Assembly: GCA_021779955.1 (NCBI GenBank)
Contig: JAJXZS010000030.1
Location: 1 to 38,151 of the forward strand
Direction of reading: 5' to 3'
DNA length: 38,151 nucleotides
DNA from: Chloroflexota bacterium
GTDB lineage: Bacteria; Chloroflexota; Anaerolineae; Anaerolineales; Anaerolineaceae
Positions 7,676 to 13,084 of the stretch are shown piece after piece; position 1 is the stretch's first letter; every line of letters begins with the position of its first letter. The position numbers were made by a program, and so were the translations under genes. Under the pieces are notes generated by a model. The model had not been told where the DNA came from, ran no database searches, and was given only the letters and a program-made list of their open reading frames with translations.

Positions 7676-8095
7676 ATGTATCAGAAAATCGTCATTGTGG
7701 GACGCCTGGGCAGAGACCCCGAAATGCGGTTCACGCCATCCGGTCAGGCTGTAACGAGCTTCTCGGTTGCTACCGACAATTTTCATAACGACGCAAACGG
7801 AGCCTCGGTAAAAGACACCGTTTGGTTTAGAATTTCCGCCTGGGGTAAGTTGGCCGAGACCTGCAACAACTATCTTCAAAAAGGCAAAATGGTTTTGGTC
7901 GAAGGCCGCCTTACCGCAGACGCCAAGACGGGCGGACCTCGCGTTTGGACAGCCCAGGATGGCACGACCAGGGCGAGTTTCGAGGTTTCAGCGCAGACCG
8001 TGAAGTTTCTATCTGGTAAGGCTGAAGGCGCGGCCGGTGGCGCTGGTGAAGAGGAAGCAGAAGTTCCGACATCGGATGATAACATTCCATTCTAA
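7676..8095 (+). CDS. ssb: Single-stranded DNA-binding protein
   Basis: Binds and protects single-stranded DNA during replication and repair. The OB-fold occupies about residues 1-107 (YQKIVIVGRLGRDPEMRFTPSGQAVTSFSVATD, WFRISAWGKLAETCNNYLQKGKMVLVEGRL). A Gly/Ala/Glu-rich linker and the acidic tip DDNIPF, which recruits repair and replication partners, follow. Length 139 aa is typical of short SSBs. A strong AAGGAGA precedes the ATG. It heads a plus-strand run of closely spaced genes reaching at least to recN. Confidence 0.97.
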   Translation: MYQKIVIVGRLGRDPEMRFTPSGQAVTSFSVATDNFHNDANGASVKDTVWFRISAWGKLAETCNNYLQKGKMVLVEGRLTADAKTGGPRVWTAQDGTTRASFEVSAQTVKFLSGKAEGAAGGAGEEEAEVPTSDDNIPF

Positions 8096-8469: not shown

Positions 8470-9114
8470 ATGCATAACTTCAACGGAATTATCGAACAGG
8501 CAGAAGCTGTCTTCGAGGCGCGTACCAAGGCCCGCGACCAGGCATTGGTGCAGGCCCGCCAGTTGACCCGGCTCTCCGCTCATACCATCCGTGCCATTCA
8601 CCGCAGTGAGGTCGACCAGGCGCATACCCTGCTCGATGAAGCGCGCGCGATCGTCGAGGCGCTCAAGACGGACCTTGCAGGCTTCCCCGATCTGTATTTC
8701 GCCGGCTACACCCAGGATGCAATCAAGGAATATGCCGAAGCAAGCACCACCTGCGCGCTGATCGAAAATGAGCCTTTGCCCCTGCCCGAAACCATGGGCA
8801 TCGAGATTGCCACCTACATTAATGGACTTGCCGAAGCCATTGGCGAATTGCGCCGGCGCTGTCTCGACATCTTGCGCCAGGGATATTCTGAAGAAGCCGA
8901 ACGTCTCCTGGGCGAGATGGACGAAATCTATAATTTCCTGGTCACCATGGACTACCCCGACGCGGTCACCAACGGCTTGCGCCGCCAGACTGACCTTGCC
9001 CGCGGTATCATCGAACGCACCCGGGCTGACCTGACGATCAGCCTGCGCGAGCAGCATCTACAGGAAGCACTCCAAGAGTTTGCCGATCGATATCCCGGCA
9101 TGAAGGCTGAATGA
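8470..9114 (+). CDS. Translin family protein (prokaryotic)
   Basis: All-helical 214-aa protein resembling archaeal and bacterial translins. Family-like stretches are QARQLTRLSAHTIRAIHRSEVDQAHTLLDEA, LYFAGYTQDAIKEYAEAS and the long helix INGLAEAIGELRRRCLDILRQGYSEEAERLLGEMDEIYNFLVTMDYP. Eukaryotic translin/TRAX form the C3PO octamer, an RNA-binding RNase; archaeal translin octamers also cut RNA. Candidate acidic metal ligands are the Glu residues of the EAERLLGEMDEIY helix, but I cannot assign the catalytic triad without a structure. The gene starts 2 nt after DUF3467 and its stop is interlocked (ATGA) with the next gene, the N-half of a Cas4-like nuclease, so the two are probably translationally coupled. 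Confidence 0.82.
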   Translation: MHNFNGIIEQAEAVFEARTKARDQALVQARQLTRLSAHTIRAIHRSEVDQAHTLLDEARAIVEALKTDLAGFPDLYFAGYTQDAIKEYAEASTTCALIENEPLPLPETMGIEIATYINGLAEAIGELRRRCLDILRQGYSEEAERLLGEMDEIYNFLVTMDYPDAVTNGLRRQTDLARGIIERTRADLTISLREQHLQEALQEFADRYPGMKAE

Positions 9115-9338
9115 AAGTCGTTAAAGCATCTGAGCTGGGCCTTTACCTCTATTGCAGGCGAGCCTGGTTTTACCAGCAAGAAGGATTGAAATCGCAGAAT
9201 TTGCCTGAGATGGCAAGGGGCATTGCGTTTCACCAGCGTCACGGTTGGCAGGTCTTGACAGCCGGCTTGCTTAAGATTCTGGCCTTCGTCTGCCTCATTG
9301 GGGCAGCCCTGGGCGCTTTATTATTGGTATTCGATTGA
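9111..9338 (+). CDS. Cas4-like nuclease, N-terminal half with C-terminal membrane helix
   Basis: 75-aa protein whose first 52 residues match the N-terminal lobe of Cas4/Dna2-type RecB nucleases. It has KVVKASELGLYLYCRRAW with the first iron-sulfur cysteine (Cys15), and RGIAFHQRH with the motif-I histidine (His41). Residues 54-74 form one transmembrane helix and the protein then ends. The remaining motifs (PD, ExK, QxxxY and three cysteines) are all in the next ORF, which starts with its own membrane helix. Positive residues before the helix put this half in the cytoplasm. Start ATG overlaps the translin stop (ATGA); the stop codon TGA runs into the GAGG of the next gene. Half-enzymes acting as a pair is inference from the complementary motifs. 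Confidence 0.8.
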   Translation: MKVVKASELGLYLYCRRAWFYQQEGLKSQNLPEMARGIAFHQRHGWQVLTAGLLKILAFVCLIGAALGALLLVFD

Positions 9339-9346
9339 GGTTTTGA

Positions 9347-9904
9347 ATGATCCAATCCGACCTCGTGTTCGTCGCGATAATCGTTTTACTGGCGATGGGA
9401 ATTGCTGCGCTCATCATCAGCCGCAGAACTCAAAGGGCTACTGGTTTGCCCGAAGGCCGGTTGATCTATTCAGACACAACTGCCTGGCATAAGGTCAACC
9501 GGGCATATTTCGATTCTGAATGGGGACTGGCAGGGAAACCCGATTATGTCATCGATGTGCGTGGGGTTCAAATTCCAGTCGAGGTAAAAAGCAGCCAGGC
9601 TAAACACCCCTATGACAGCCATATCCTCCAGCTTGCTGCATATTGCCGTCTGATCCAGGTGAATAGCGGCGTGCGGCCGCCGATGGGGCTGATCAAGTAC
9701 CAGGACCGTGTGTTCGAGATCGCTTATTCTGAGTTTCTCGAGAAGCGGCTCGAGGCGCTGATTTCCGAGGTCCGCAGCCATGATGGCGCGAGTGACTTGA
9801 CACGCTCGCATAATTCACCGGCGCGCTGTGCGGGCTGTGGCTATCGTTCCCAATGTGATCAAAGCCTGAACGTGACCAACAGCAATCAGCCAAAAAAGAT
9901 ATAA
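9347..9904 (+). CDS. Cas4-like nuclease, C-terminal catalytic half with N-terminal membrane helix
   Basis: 185-aa protein with an N-terminal transmembrane helix (5-24) followed by SRRTQR (positive, so the rest is cytoplasmic). The PD-(D/E)xK core then appears: GKPDYVI (Asp66), VEVKSS (Glu79, Lys81), QLAAYC (Gln95, Tyr99). The C-terminal RCAGCGYRSQC gives Cys161-x2-Cys164-x5-Cys170, the three-cysteine part of the Cas4 [4Fe-4S] site. The fourth cysteine and the motif-I histidine are missing here and present in the preceding ORF. Its frame has a TGA immediately before the ATG and differs from the upstream frame, so this is a designed two-gene arrangement rather than one broken gene. GAGG (9337-9340) overlaps the upstream stop, indicating coupling. 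No cas gene or CRISPR array is nearby; the role may be DNA end processing or repair. Confidence 0.82.
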   Translation: MIQSDLVFVAIIVLLAMGIAALIISRRTQRATGLPEGRLIYSDTTAWHKVNRAYFDSEWGLAGKPDYVIDVRGVQIPVEVKSSQAKHPYDSHILQLAAYCRLIQVNSGVRPPMGLIKYQDRVFEIAYSEFLEKRLEALISEVRSHDGASDLTRSHNSPARCAGCGYRSQCDQSLNVTNSNQPKKI

Positions 9905-9914
9905 TTAAGGAACT

Positions 9915-10790
9915 ATGCCCGAAAACAAGAAGGAAGTCCGTTCGATCGTCATCCTTGCCAACCCGACCATGCCGGAGGCGCTCGCCGAAGGCCGGAAAGT
10001 TCAAAGAGCACTCGAGAAGACACATCAGGTCAGGACTGTGTTGGCGAATATCGACGACACGGCCATCCGCAAGCGGGTGACCGAAAATGAATTCGACATT
10101 TTGATCGCCCTGGGTGGTGATGGCACGATGCTGCGCGCGGGCCACCTGGCTGCGCCGGTAGGGCTGCCCATCCTCGGCATCAACCTCGGGCGGTTCGGTT
10201 TTCTGATGCAGTTGCGCCTGGACGATTGGAAAGCTGCAGTCCCGCGCCTGCTGGCAGGCGAGTATAAACTCGAGCACCGTATGATGCTCCAGGCGGAGCT
10301 CTTGCGCGGCGATGCCATCTTGCAGACCTTGCAGGTGGTTAACGAAGCAGTCGTCTGTCGCGGGAAATACGTTCGACCGATCCGGGTGGTGGCTTCTGTC
10401 GATGGCTACGTCCTTGCCTCATACGTGGCAGATGGACTGATCGCGGCTACACCCACGGGCTCGACCGGATACGCCCTTGCAGCTAATGGGCCCATCCTGC
10501 CCCCTGAATTGCGCAACATTCTCATCATACCGGTCGCTCCGCACCTTTCGATGGAGCATGCCGTTGTCCTTCCCGAAGGCGCCACGGTGATCTTCTCACA
10601 CGAGACCGATCACGAGGCTGTCTTGAGCGTCGACGGCCATGAACCGATCCATCTGGAGGACGGCGATCGCGTACGAATTTCGAGCGGCGCGCATACACTG
10701 AAGTTTGTTGTCTTCAAAGACCCCGGTTACTTTTATCGTAACCTGAGTTTATACATGGAGCAGAACCCATCGCGCAATGGATTAAAATGA
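9915..10790 (+). CDS. nadK: NAD kinase
   Basis: Phosphorylates NAD to NADP using ATP or polyphosphate. The 291-aa protein shows the family's GGDGT motif (ALGGDGTMLRAG, about residues 64-76), GRFGFL after the NLG turn, the conserved VNEAVV segment, PTGSTGYALAANGPILPP, and a C-terminal beta domain with VLSVDG. AAGGA lies just upstream of the ATG, and a TATAAT (9900-9905) ends only 9 nt before it, overlapping the upstream gene's stop; an internal promoter with a tiny leader is possible. The stop overlaps the start of the next gene (ATGA). Confidence 0.96.
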   Translation: MPENKKEVRSIVILANPTMPEALAEGRKVQRALEKTHQVRTVLANIDDTAIRKRVTENEFDILIALGGDGTMLRAGHLAAPVGLPILGINLGRFGFLMQLRLDDWKAAVPRLLAGEYKLEHRMMLQAELLRGDAILQTLQVVNEAVVCRGKYVRPIRVVASVDGYVLASYVADGLIAATPTGSTGYALAANGPILPPELRNILIIPVAPHLSMEHAVVLPEGATVIFSHETDHEAVLSVDGHEPIHLEDGDRVRISSGAHTLKFVVFKDPGYFYRNLSLYMEQNPSRNGLK

Positions 10791-11344
10791 CAGACGTCGA
10801 AAACAATTCAACAACCAACCCTGAGCCTGAAACGCTCTATTGTTACGTACATCCCGATCGCCCCACGCTGCTGCGCTGCAATCGCTGCGGACGTCCCATC
10901 TGCACCAAATGTGCAGTGCTTACGCCAACCGGCTATCGCTGCAAAGAATGTGTGAAAAGCCAGCAAAAGATATTTATCACAGCCCGCTGGTGGGATTACC
11001 CTCTGGCAGTGTTGATTGCCGCTGTATTGGGTTACATTGGGAGCTTAATTGTCAGCCAGTTGGGAGGCTTTCTCGGGTTCATTACCATCTTTATCGCCCC
11101 GATCGCCGGTATGATTATTTCTGAAGCAGTCAGGTTTGTGACTCACAAGCGCCGATCGAAGCCCCTCTTCTGGACGGCCGCTGCGGCAACATTCGTGGGC
11201 AGCATTATCATCAGCCTTACTTACATTTCTTTTCTCTTTCTTGGACGAGGAATCGGCGCCTTGTACGGGATCCTCTGGCCTTCTGTTTTTGCCGTGCTGA
11301 CGACATCGACCGTCTATTACAGGCTGGCAGGCATCCGCTTATAG
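10787..11344 (+). CDS. B-box zinc-finger integral membrane protein
   Basis: 185-aa protein with an N-terminal zinc finger (about residues 18-56): YCYVHPDRPTLLRCNRCGRPICTKCAVLTPTGYRCKEC, a B-box-like Cys/His array. Four or so hydrophobic helices follow (about 70-90, 93-113, 127-150, 155-175). Proteins with this layout are common in Chloroflexi and other bacteria, often near rhomboid or Yip1-type genes; no function is known. The ATG overlaps the nadK stop, so it is translated from the same message, and recN starts 9 nt after it. Confidence 0.82.
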   Translation: MTDVENNSTTNPEPETLYCYVHPDRPTLLRCNRCGRPICTKCAVLTPTGYRCKECVKSQQKIFITARWWDYPLAVLIAAVLGYIGSLIVSQLGGFLGFITIFIAPIAGMIISEAVRFVTHKRRSKPLFWTAAAATFVGSIIISLTYISFLFLGRGIGALYGILWPSVFAVLTTSTVYYRLAGIRL

Positions 11345-11353
11345 GAAGGACTC

Positions 11354-13084
11354 ATGTTAACTGAACTCCGTATCGAGAACTTCGCCATCATCCAGGCGCT
11401 CGAATTGCATTTCAAGAACGGGCTGGTCATCTTCACAGGTGAGACCGGCGCCGGCAAGTCGATCATTCTGGATGCCATCGAAGCTTTGGTCGGCGGACGC
11501 TCTGATGCAACCATGGTGCGCAGCGGATCAGATCGTGCAGCGCTTGAAGCAGTTTTCAAAATCCCGGCGCAATTCAGCACAGAGCTTCATGCCATCCTCG
11601 AACGCGAAGATCTCGATGACGGATCGGACGAGGTAGTGTTTGGCCGTGAGATTCGCCTCGAAGGGCGCACGGTGGCGCGAGTCAACGGGCGGAGTGTCAA
11701 TGTAGGGCTTCTCAAGGAACTGGGAACTTCCCTGGTCGATATCCATGGTCAATCGGAACACCTTTCTCTGTTGAATGTAAAATCTCATCTCGGTTTGCTT
11801 GATCGCTTTGCCGGAGTACCCAAAGAACAGGAGGAATACCAGGCAGCCTACCGCAATCTGCGGCAGATCCGCAAGGAATTACAGACCCTGCGCGAAGTGG
11901 AAGCCGAAGCTGGGCGCCGGATGGAGTTGCTCGAATTCCAGGCCCAGGAAATCCAGGGCGCCAATTTGAGCCTGGGCGAGGACGAAGAGCTTACCCAGGA
12001 ACGTTCGCGCCTCGCAAACGCCGAGACGCTTACCACTTCAGCCCAACAGGTTTTGACCCTCCTGGACGAAGGCGGGCCGGACGCGCTTGCCGTAAGCGAC
12101 TTATTGGGGCAGGCAAGGCAGTTGCTCTCGAACCTTGCGCGTATCGATTCGAGCCAGTCTGCGCTTCTCGAACAACTGGAGGGCGCCTCCGAGCAGCTTT
12201 CCGATGTGGCGCGCAGTCTGAGCGGATACCTGGAAGAGATCGAATACAACCCCCGCCGGCTCGAGCAGGTCGAGGAAAGGCTCGAGCTGATCCATCGCGT
12301 GCTCAAAAAATACGGAGGCACGGTCGAAGCTGCGCTCGAATTCGGTCAGAATGCGCGCAGCCAGCTCGAAAGCATTGCCCATGCCGGCGAGCGGATCGCA
12401 GAATTGGAAGAGCAGGAACAGGCTGCGCTGGACGTGTTGAAAGACAGGGCGATCGCCCTTTCCGGAAAACGCAAAGCCGCAGCTCTGACGCTGCAGGAGT
12501 GCGTCGAAAAGGAGCTTGCCGATCTGAGTATGTCTGGGGCGAAGTTCGAAGTCGAATTTGCGACCGCTGAATCCGATGCCGGTGTCGAGGTGACGCCAGG
12601 CATCAGGACAGCCTTCAACGAAACAGGCATCGATCAGGTCGAATTCTTCATTGCGCCCAACCCGGGCGAAGGCCTGAAGCCGTTGACCAAGATCGCTTCA
12701 GGCGGAGAGACTTCCAGGTTGATGCTTGCGCTCAAGAATGTGCTCACCGGCGCCGATTTTATCCCAACGCTGATCTTTGACGAGATCGATCAGGGGATAG
12801 GCGGTAGAGTAGGAAATGTGGTCGGTGAAAAACTGTGGAGGCTTGCGCGAAATCACCAGGTGATGTGCGTCACTCATCTGCCGCAACTTGCCGCATATGG
12901 TGACCAGCATTACAGCGTGCGTAAGCTCGTCCATGACGGTCGCACCACCACCGAAGTCCATGAACTGGCGGATACTTCCCGTGAGTCCGAACTGGCGCTG
13001 ATGACCGGAAGCGTCAGCGAAGCAACGCTCAAAGCTGCCCGCGAAGTTCTTGAAGCAGCCCAAAAACGGTCGCAGACGGATTAA
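11354..13084 (+). CDS. recN: DNA repair protein RecN
   Basis: SMC-like ATPase used in recombinational repair of double-strand breaks. The N-terminal half has Walker A GETGAGKS (29-36) after LRIENFAIIQALELHF. A long coiled-coil middle (about 150-370, rich in Glu, Gln, Leu) follows. The C-terminal half carries the signature KIASGGETSRLMLALK, Walker B TLIFDEIDQGIGG, and a final VTHLPQLAAYGDQHY switch region. Length 576 aa is normal. GGAAGGA precedes ATG. It follows the B-box gene by 9 nt, tying it to the nadK set, an association of nadK and recN that is common in bacteria. Confidence 0.97.
   Translation: MLTELRIENFAIIQALELHFKNGLVIFTGETGAGKSIILDAIEALVGGRSDATMVRSGSDRAALEAVFKIPAQFSTELHAILEREDLDDGSDEVVFGREIRLEGRTVARVNGRSVNVGLLKELGTSLVDIHGQSEHLSLLNVKSHLGLLDRFAGVPKEQEEYQAAYRNLRQIRKELQTLREVEAEAGRRMELLEFQAQEIQGANLSLGEDEELTQERSRLANAETLTTSAQQVLTLLDEGGPDALAVSDLLGQARQLLSNLARIDSSQSALLEQLEGASEQLSDVARSLSGYLEEIEYNPRRLEQVEERLELIHRVLKKYGGTVEAALEFGQNARSQLESIAHAGERIAELEEQEQAALDVLKDRAIALSGKRKAAALTLQECVEKELADLSMSGAKFEVEFATAESDAGVEVTPGIRTAFNETGIDQVEFFIAPNPGEGLKPLTKIASGGETSRLMLALKNVLTGADFIPTLIFDEIDQGIGGRVGNVVGEKLWRLARNHQVMCVTHLPQLAAYGDQHYSVRKLVHDGRTTTEVHELADTSRESELALMTGSVSEATLKAAREVLEAAQKRSQTD

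Follow-up and report, generated by a model that had tools for sequence, protein, structure and literature searches.

Two adjacent open reading frames (ORFs) on contig JAJXZS010000030.1 of a Chloroflexota bacterium of the family Anaerolineaceae (assembly GCA_021779955.1; 38,151 nucleotides, this whole stretch being the window) each encode part of a Cas4-type nuclease, and each carries a membrane helix. Is this one gene that has been broken, a nuclease beside a separate membrane protein, or a single enzyme made from two genes? Our analysis indicates that ORF1 and ORF2 are very probably obligate subunits of one two-gene, membrane-tethered solo-Cas4, with the iron-sulfur (Fe-S) site and the active site shared between the chains. 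This reading is based on the co-conservation and co-absence of the halves, their retention together when unlinked, low ratios of nonsynonymous to synonymous substitution (dN/dS), a bias in membrane topology, natural fusions and a joint fold. From these data we infer a heterodimer with an Fe-S cluster and nuclease activity.

Examination of the window confirmed the coordinates, frames and residues given for both ORFs in the initial annotation, namely Cys15, His41 and a terminal membrane helix in ORF1, and an N-terminal membrane helix followed by the PD, ExK, QxxxY and CxxCx5C motifs in ORF2 (Table 1). The ORFs lie in different frames (start offset 236 = 2 mod 3), 8 bases separate the ORF1 stop from the ORF2 ATG, and by sequence reading the ORF1 start codon shares 4 bases with the upstream stop. 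Because of this overlap, the 8-base spacing and the GAGG over the ORF1 stop, the two ORFs and the upstream gene look like a translationally coupled operon. The spacing of C161, C164 and C170 in ORF2 is that of Cys200, Cys203 and Cys209 in Pcal_0546 (PMC4176176).

Table 1. Features of the window (positions count from its first letter; here and in the text, papers given by PMC number are cited from excerpts)
Feature	Position	Strand	Evidence or remark
ORF1, 75 aa: Cas4-type nuclease N-terminal lobe and C-terminal membrane helix	9111..9338	+	
Cys15, first Fe-S ligand (predicted), on ORF1	9153..9155	+	invariant in 28 homologues; corresponds to N-terminal Cas4 Cys (PMC4176176)
His41, motif-I metal-site histidine (predicted), on ORF1	9231..9233	+	invariant in 28 homologues
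Membrane helix 1, ORF1 residues 56-74, predicted in-to-out	9276..9332	+	hydrophobic stretch; helix 31-78 in relative's model
GAGG, likely ORF2 ribosome-binding site, overlaps ORF1 stop	9337..9340	+	sequence reading
ORF2, 185 aa: membrane helix and remainder of Cas4-type nuclease	9347..9904	+	PF01930 6.5e-9, TIGR00372 7.3e-17
Membrane helix 2, ORF2 residues 6-24, predicted out-to-in	9362..9418	+	hydrophobic stretch; helix 86-112 in relative's model
P65-D66, motif II, ORF2	9539..9544	+	invariant in 25 homologues
E79-V-K81, motif III, ORF2	9581..9589	+	E and K invariant in 25 homologues
Q95xxxY99 motif, ORF2	9629..9643	+	Q and Y invariant in 25 homologues
C161xxC164x5C170, other three Fe-S ligands (predicted), ORF2	9827..9856	+	invariant in 25 homologues
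Single-stranded DNA-binding protein (SSB), operon neighbour	7676..8095	+	
Translin-family protein, operon neighbour directly upstream of ORF1	8470..9114	+	NF011160 251.6 bits, cut-off 291; context, outside the nuclease
B-box-like zinc finger and hydrophobic stretches	10787-11344		PF00643 21.8 bits, cut-off 24.1 missed; recurs between NadK and RecN
RecN, operon neighbour	11354..13084	+	

Profile searches revealed complementary matches of the two ORFs to Cas4 models. ORF2 scored 36.5 bits against PF01930, above the cut-off of 22.7, and on its own 61.8 bits against TIGR00372, under the cut-off of 65; its best PADLOC Cas4 match had an E-value of 1.9e-17, and the four best models were covered from position 34-55 to the end. 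ORF1 alone matched three PADLOC Cas4 models over only their first 42-44 positions (E 0.008-0.04) and PDDEXK_1 at best with E 0.16. A profile of the ORF1 family gave four matches in the PDB, one of them to a nuclease (Cas4 8d3l_I, residues 11-49, E 0.32), on which the Cys and the His are aligned. The top match by E-value, 8qag, is a designed protein matched through the hydrophobic part and was set aside, as were two antibody chains. When relatives were read through from one half into the other, all six exceeded the TIGR00372 cut-off (78.8-93.6 bits), and a single PDDEXK_1 match spanned both halves in three.

Residue conservation was analyzed in 28 ORF1 rows (alignment A1) and 25 ORF2 rows (A2) from 30 loci; A1 excluded L012, which is cut by a contig end, and L013, which is without ORF1, and A2 excluded five loci (loci are numbered with L and genomes with G). 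C15, R17, W19, G37 and H41 were invariant in A1, which rules out ORF1 as a chance match, and the invariant columns of A2 included P65, D66, E79, K81, Q95, Y99, C161, C164 and C170. A wider survey of 151 loci, covering fewer genomes and made before the last ten loci, identified the full PD-E-K-Q-Y-C-C-C set in 138 loci, as in the window, and the ORF2 cysteine trio in 149. ORF1 could be aligned in 131 loci; Cys15 was present in 130 of them, the truncated L150 being the exception, and His41 in 129, with R in L114 and E in L129. All four Cas4 cysteines are present, split 1+3 between ORF1 and ORF2, and the Cas4 motif-I His is present, yet sits on ORF1; the window departs from a single-polypeptide Cas4 in its two ORFs in different frames. 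Together, the complementary model coverage and the ligand residues invariant on each chain support the claim that the two halves make a complete Cas4.

The two halves were also inherited together. Strong matches were defined as E <= 1e-13 for ORF1 and E <= 1e-46 for ORF2, thresholds set after the score lists were seen; the profile search scores part of the first-look candidates, and the genome counts are lower bounds. Strong ORF1 matches occurred in 62 of 301 Chloroflexota genomes and strong ORF2 matches in 61, and 61 genomes had both, so that the conserved pairing expected of a split enzyme was found in 61/62 genomes starting from ORF1 and in 61/61 starting from ORF2. A strong ORF1 without a strong ORF2 occurred only in G120, a genome that is 82% complete, and at these thresholds none of the 301 genomes had a full ORF2 without ORF1. 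At E 0.001, 76 genomes had an ORF1 match, 75 of these with ORF2; ORF2 itself matched in 117 genomes, including other Cas4-like proteins. In a set of 61 relatives, both halves were identified in 36, neither in 24 and an ORF2 fragment alone in one (G016, a 40-aa C-terminal remnant). Retention of one ORF alone, named beforehand as evidence against a split enzyme, was at strong thresholds confined to G120 and this fragment. Neither half was found in 13 of 15 same-genus genomes: in six of the 13 the flanking translin and NadK genes stood side by side with both halves gone, and in the other seven the sequence upstream of NadK was different. In G009 the pair was located away from NadK.

Physical linkage of the halves was variable. 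In the 61 genomes with both, they were adjacent in 47, 212-836 bases apart in six and elsewhere in eight. G263 carries them on one 3.3-Mb contig at positions 3,051,906 and 244,709, and G341 on one contig 0.89 Mb apart on opposite strands; in G209, G336, G095, G315, G329 and G154 they lie on different contigs, with at least 5 kb before ORF2 free of ORF1. Two further unlinked pairs were identified in the set of 61 relatives (G023, G051), bringing the total to ten genomes in six families, two with the halves on one contig far apart and eight with them on different contigs. The best ORF2 tree, built from 68 chosen rows, contained 7 changes of linkage label; we claim six families and not seven unlinking events because well-supported branches force only 1 change.

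In the 30 loci from the 61 relatives, ORF1 was located just upstream of ORF2, whole in 28 and cut by a contig end in one; L013 lacks ORF1 at the locus, and its genome, G023, carries ORF1 on another contig. Of 340 relatives detected among GTDB genomes the best 80 were kept, and ORF1 was within the locus in 76 of these. The titles of these genomes name what we take to be Chloroflexota groups. The exceptions were L195, L207, L227 and L233; L227 is taken as the same contig as in G023, and L207 and L233 begin within ~660 bases of a contig end. Whole genes, named by eye, were identified between the halves, encoding a repeat-like protein in L106, L109, L190, L199 and others, a YkuD-like protein in L107, L108 and L222 and an FMN-reductase-like protein in L211. 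The repeat-like insert, ~210 aa in length, was also observed in L201, L202, L209, L216, L228, L229, L234, L237, L241 and L249, doubled in tandem in L202 and L234. As a separate observation, sequences resembling degraded additional copies or pieces of ORF1 or ORF2 were present in L124 (6088-6945, - strand), L126 and G016:C55:16657-16776.

Both genes displayed low dN/dS. The median was 0.23 for ORF1 and 0.11 for ORF2 (92 measurable) across 119 non-independent pairs picked by ORF1 proportions of synonymous (pS 0.08-0.6) and nonsynonymous (pN <0.25) differences, a selection that favours low values. For the unlinked pairs of G263 and G329, ORF1 had dN 0.020 and dS 0.162, and ORF2 dN 0.014 and dS 0.105. 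For G095 and G315 the values were dN 0.312 and dS 0.654 for ORF1 and dN 0.219 and dS 1.119 for ORF2, indicating that ORF1 is less constrained in that unlinked pair.

We also analyzed the charges flanking the membrane helices, from which the initial annotation had placed both lobes in the cytoplasm. On average the ORF1 helix stops 3 residues short of the C-terminus, with a mean of 2.05 lysine and arginine residues before it and 0.28 after, and more before than after in 71/76 sequences. The ORF2 helix begins near residue 2, with a mean of 0.14 before and 2.88 after, and more after in 80/80. The argument thus holds across the family, and because of this bias ORF1 is predicted to be N-in/C-out and ORF2 N-out/C-in, with both lobes cytoplasmic.

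A joint structure was modelled with AlphaFold2 on the read-through relative L239, using 118 rows of alignment A4 (10 read-through rows, 2 from the window, 51 of 66 ORF1 rows truncated ahead of the helix and 55 of 70 ORF2 rows); an earlier alignment, A3, was discarded and replaced by A4 after MAFFT had placed the ORF1 helix on the ORF2 helix. The model had a predicted local distance difference test (pLDDT) score of 95.8 and a predicted template modelling score of 0.90, with block pLDDT 94-97 over the soluble part of ORF1, and contained a helix (31-78) that starts close to the His and extends across the membrane segment, followed by a second helix (86-112). Foldseek matched it to type I-C Cas4, a Cas4-Cas1 fusion, ACE1 and Dna2. 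Compared through this model, the pair aligned in VIA with 7mi4_A residues 8-200 with a Z score of 19.9 (root-mean-square deviation 2.6, 178 aligned), followed by 8d3l_I (18.9), AdnA (15.4), 4ic1 (14.2), Exo5 (13.8), ACE1 (12.1), Dna2 (12.0) and AddAB chain B (10.7). The structure prediction that had been proposed as a check therefore returned a confident Cas4-like fold, though as one chain and not as a heterodimer; the joint fold supports a heterodimer and does not prove it, because the linker imposes proximity.

Weaker ORF2s were identified in 28 further genomes, and this second tier contained fused forms. A separate upstream ORF1-like frame was found in 24 of the 28 (14 by profile, then 6, then 4), six of them partly by a pattern requiring the cysteine. 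ORF1 was not found in two of the 28, G318, which is cut by a contig end, and G286, where ORF2 looks broken. In G080 (L118, 353 aa) and G325 (L286, 330 aa) the two halves form a single frame with two hydrophobic helices in the middle, the central hairpin that had been predicted for fused homologues; these emerged from inspection of L118 and a rescan with second-tier ORF1 profiles, beyond the first-tier profile. Genus g74 holds both forms, fused in G080 and split in G181 and G332, which indicates that fusion or splitting is recent there, with the caveat that a single-base error could join or part frames in one assembly. Both fusions are divergent and catalytically degenerate, and they support the pairing and the hairpin topology without revealing the ancestral state.

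Taken together, these data suggest how a two-gene, membrane-tethered Cas4 could work. ORF1, with its N-terminus inside, would supply Cys15 as the first Fe-S ligand, His41 for motif I and the initial helices. ORF2 would enter the membrane from outside, its cytoplasmic part providing the D, E, K, Q and Y residues along with the remaining three cysteines. The two membrane helices would pair and the lobes co-fold beneath the membrane, with the Fe-S site and the metal site both completed across the chain boundary. Separate chains might allow assembly to be controlled by the membrane or by cluster insertion. The role is the least certain part, and could be the trimming or destruction of single-stranded DNA at the inner membrane face.

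Two explanations of this role were weighed against the gene neighbourhood. In Anaerolineae the gene order is SSB, DUF3467, translin, ORF1, ORF2, NadK, B-box/membrane protein and RecN, and in 80 short loci all eight genes were present in 22 (translin in 49, NadK in 60, RecN in 55, SSB in 41). This order favours a two-chain enzyme for chromosomal repair or recombination acting with SSB, the translin-family protein and RecN. With SSB and RecN nearby, the Anaerolineae context suggests DNA metabolism, yet it is not decisive, because an RseP-like gene (read by eye) precedes the pair in 13/20 loci of other lineages; in addition, the pair can be unlinked and most of the same-genus relatives manage without it, and we regard a repair role as possible but rather doubtful. 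The membrane tether and the patchy loss instead favour an enzyme that destroys or trims foreign single-stranded DNA entering through the membrane by transformation, conjugation or phage infection. The nearest functional lead is a Cas4-like nuclease of Synechococcus elongatus that lowers the transfer or maintenance of RSF1010 replicons (PMC10653904). Against this, no defence genes were recognised next to the pair in the loci examined, where neighbours are only partly annotated, the pair was present in 11/15 genomes with a full-length Cas1 match versus 25/46 others, giving no clear tie to clustered regularly interspaced short palindromic repeats (CRISPR), and ComEC, near-universal in the relatives (57/61), gave no competence signal. 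We give a role against foreign DNA the same weight as a repair role.

A mobile origin of the pair was rejected: 8 pattern matches in viral contigs yielded 0 confirmed relatives, no relative was confirmed in phages, and nine plasmid records matched distantly, each over less than 80% of the query. The profile search identified no Cas1 match in the window's genome, in agreement with the earlier statement that no CRISPR locus is near; the pair is not beside cas1/cas2 and, like solo-Cas4, lies outside CRISPR-cas loci. Divergent Cas1-like frames of ~290-370 aa were observed in G005, G006, G011, G020, G028, G048 and G056, with two non-contiguous segments that match the Cas1 profile (best E 1.5e-10 to 5.6e-8).

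Some members of the family are catalytically degenerate. The ORF2 parts of L117, L118, L119, L120, L121, L129 and L286 are without at least one of D, E, K, Q and Y, and all seven pairs retain the three ORF2 cysteines (CxxCx5C) and the ORF1 cysteine, although the L119 ORF1 was located by a pattern demanding that cysteine. The GxxxH histidine of ORF1 was clearly lost in six of the seven and ambiguous in L118, which has a His at the next position; it was retained in 13 intact relatives of the same group (L111, L112, L113, L115, L116, L281-L284, L287-L290), a comparison of related genomes for which no significance is claimed. The proposed co-variation was thus observed: Cys15 and His41 are invariant in the 28 ORF1s, and the His is mostly lost where the ORF2 catalytic residues are lost. 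In a further group (L122, L123, L124, L125) the motif-II Pro is replaced by Cys and the QxxxY Tyr by Leu; L124 additionally carries Glu instead of Asp. In Pcal_0546 and SSO1391, cleavage was not significantly affected when the cluster cysteines were mutated, whereas SSO0001 needed them (PMC4176176). Since two Cas4s can cleave without these cysteines, the cluster may act mostly as a structural staple, in keeping with its persistence in degenerate pairs. These pairs would also suit an explanation in which part of the family is now a membrane-bound Fe-S scaffold or sensor and not a nuclease; the whole motif set is kept in the window and in the great majority of the loci surveyed, and we consider this unlikely. 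As a broader and speculative proposal, to which we give somewhat less than even weight, the 1+3 Fe-S staple could serve as a coincidence and location switch at the cell boundary, with some lineages having lost the nuclease, kept the scaffold as a sensor and twice fused it.

Several observations weigh against one two-chain enzyme. The Cas4-model match of the window's own ORF1 is weak as a single sequence, and in the joint model the halves are connected through a stop that is read as an amino acid. In L114 the ORF2 motifs are all intact and ORF1 carries an Arg at the His position. No ORF1 lies within 3 kb upstream in L195, the rest of its genome not having been searched, and most genomes in the survey are metagenome-assembled. 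Judged by their residues, the degenerate pairs show that nuclease activity is apparently not the selected trait in every lineage. An explanation that draws on the first of these points is that ORF2 alone is the nuclease and ORF1 a separate membrane partner, an anchor or regulator whose Cas4-like N-terminus stays outside the fold. It would agree with the indirect footing of the heterodimer and with the cleavage by the Pcal_0546 and SSO1391 cysteine mutants, but the Cas4 ligand residues invariant in ORF1, the ORF1 His that follows the ORF2 catalytic residues in most degenerate pairs, the natural fusions and the high confidence over the ORF1 soluble part in the joint fold make it improbable. A single enzyme disrupted by a recent frameshift or a sequencing error, or produced as one chain through programmed frameshifting, might be read from adjacent genes in different frames 8 bases apart and from two relatives with the halves in one frame, yet it has next to no chance of being right: the phylum-wide split with varied spacing and frame, the inserted genes and the unlinked halves rule out error, pseudogene and a frame-joining indel at the family level, and the unlinked pairs refute programmed frameshifting for the family.

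The split pair was compared with known systems. Solo-Cas4 (DUF83/COG1468) is present in many Chloroflexi (Hudaiberdiev et al. 2017, PMC5704561) and resembles the pair in its motifs, four conserved cysteines and location away from CRISPR; the pair differs in being divided, between motifs I and II, into two polypeptides that each bear a membrane helix. In the main text of that paper the word 'split' is absent and 'membrane' occurs once, in a gene-name legend. The joint model aligns from residue 1-2 to the end with the Cas4-Cas1 fusion (7mi4/7mi5), type I-C Cas4 (8d3l), SSO0001 (4ic1) and Pcal_0546 (4r5q), at Z 11.0-19.9, although CRISPR Cas4 structures are single chains with no membrane helices and with Cas1-Cas2 partners. 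The iron-staple nucleases AddB, Dna2 and AdnA, Exo5 and the Argonaute-associated ACE1 (9iab/9iac) share the RecB-type fold, each as a single chain; the three iron-staple enzymes additionally have large helicase-type regions.

A precedent for a split is TP1/gp7 of the archaeal virus TTV1, in which Cas4 is likewise distributed over two ORFs with the cysteines 1+3 (PMC4625639). That split is cut inside QhxxY, has lost the motif-III Glu and has turned TP1 into a nucleocapsid protein; it occurs in one virus, and the excerpted text describes no membrane helix. In the window, by contrast, the cut falls between motif I and II and the catalytic set is complete. This inactivated viral protein was the only other split Cas4 in the literature searched. 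Searches on split or membrane Cas4, and on Cas4 with Chloroflexi, Anaerolinea or solo, gave nothing on the pair among the matches listed, judged by title and start of abstract, with subscription papers mostly outside their range; the excerpt of a translin paper (PMC5424206) likewise held nothing on it. We rate the split pair as a new form of solo-Cas4.

The roles of the Cas4 family outside CRISPR are obscure, and a membrane-bound form offers a concrete, testable site of action. The pair is also a natural experiment in metalloenzyme splitting: two genes divide the ligands of a single Fe-S site and a single active site, and in several families these genes have separated yet have both been retained. 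Its degenerate members allow the contribution of the cluster to be told apart from that of the nuclease. If the reading of ORF1 and ORF2 as subunits of one enzyme is true, the enzyme would form only where its two halves meet at the membrane.

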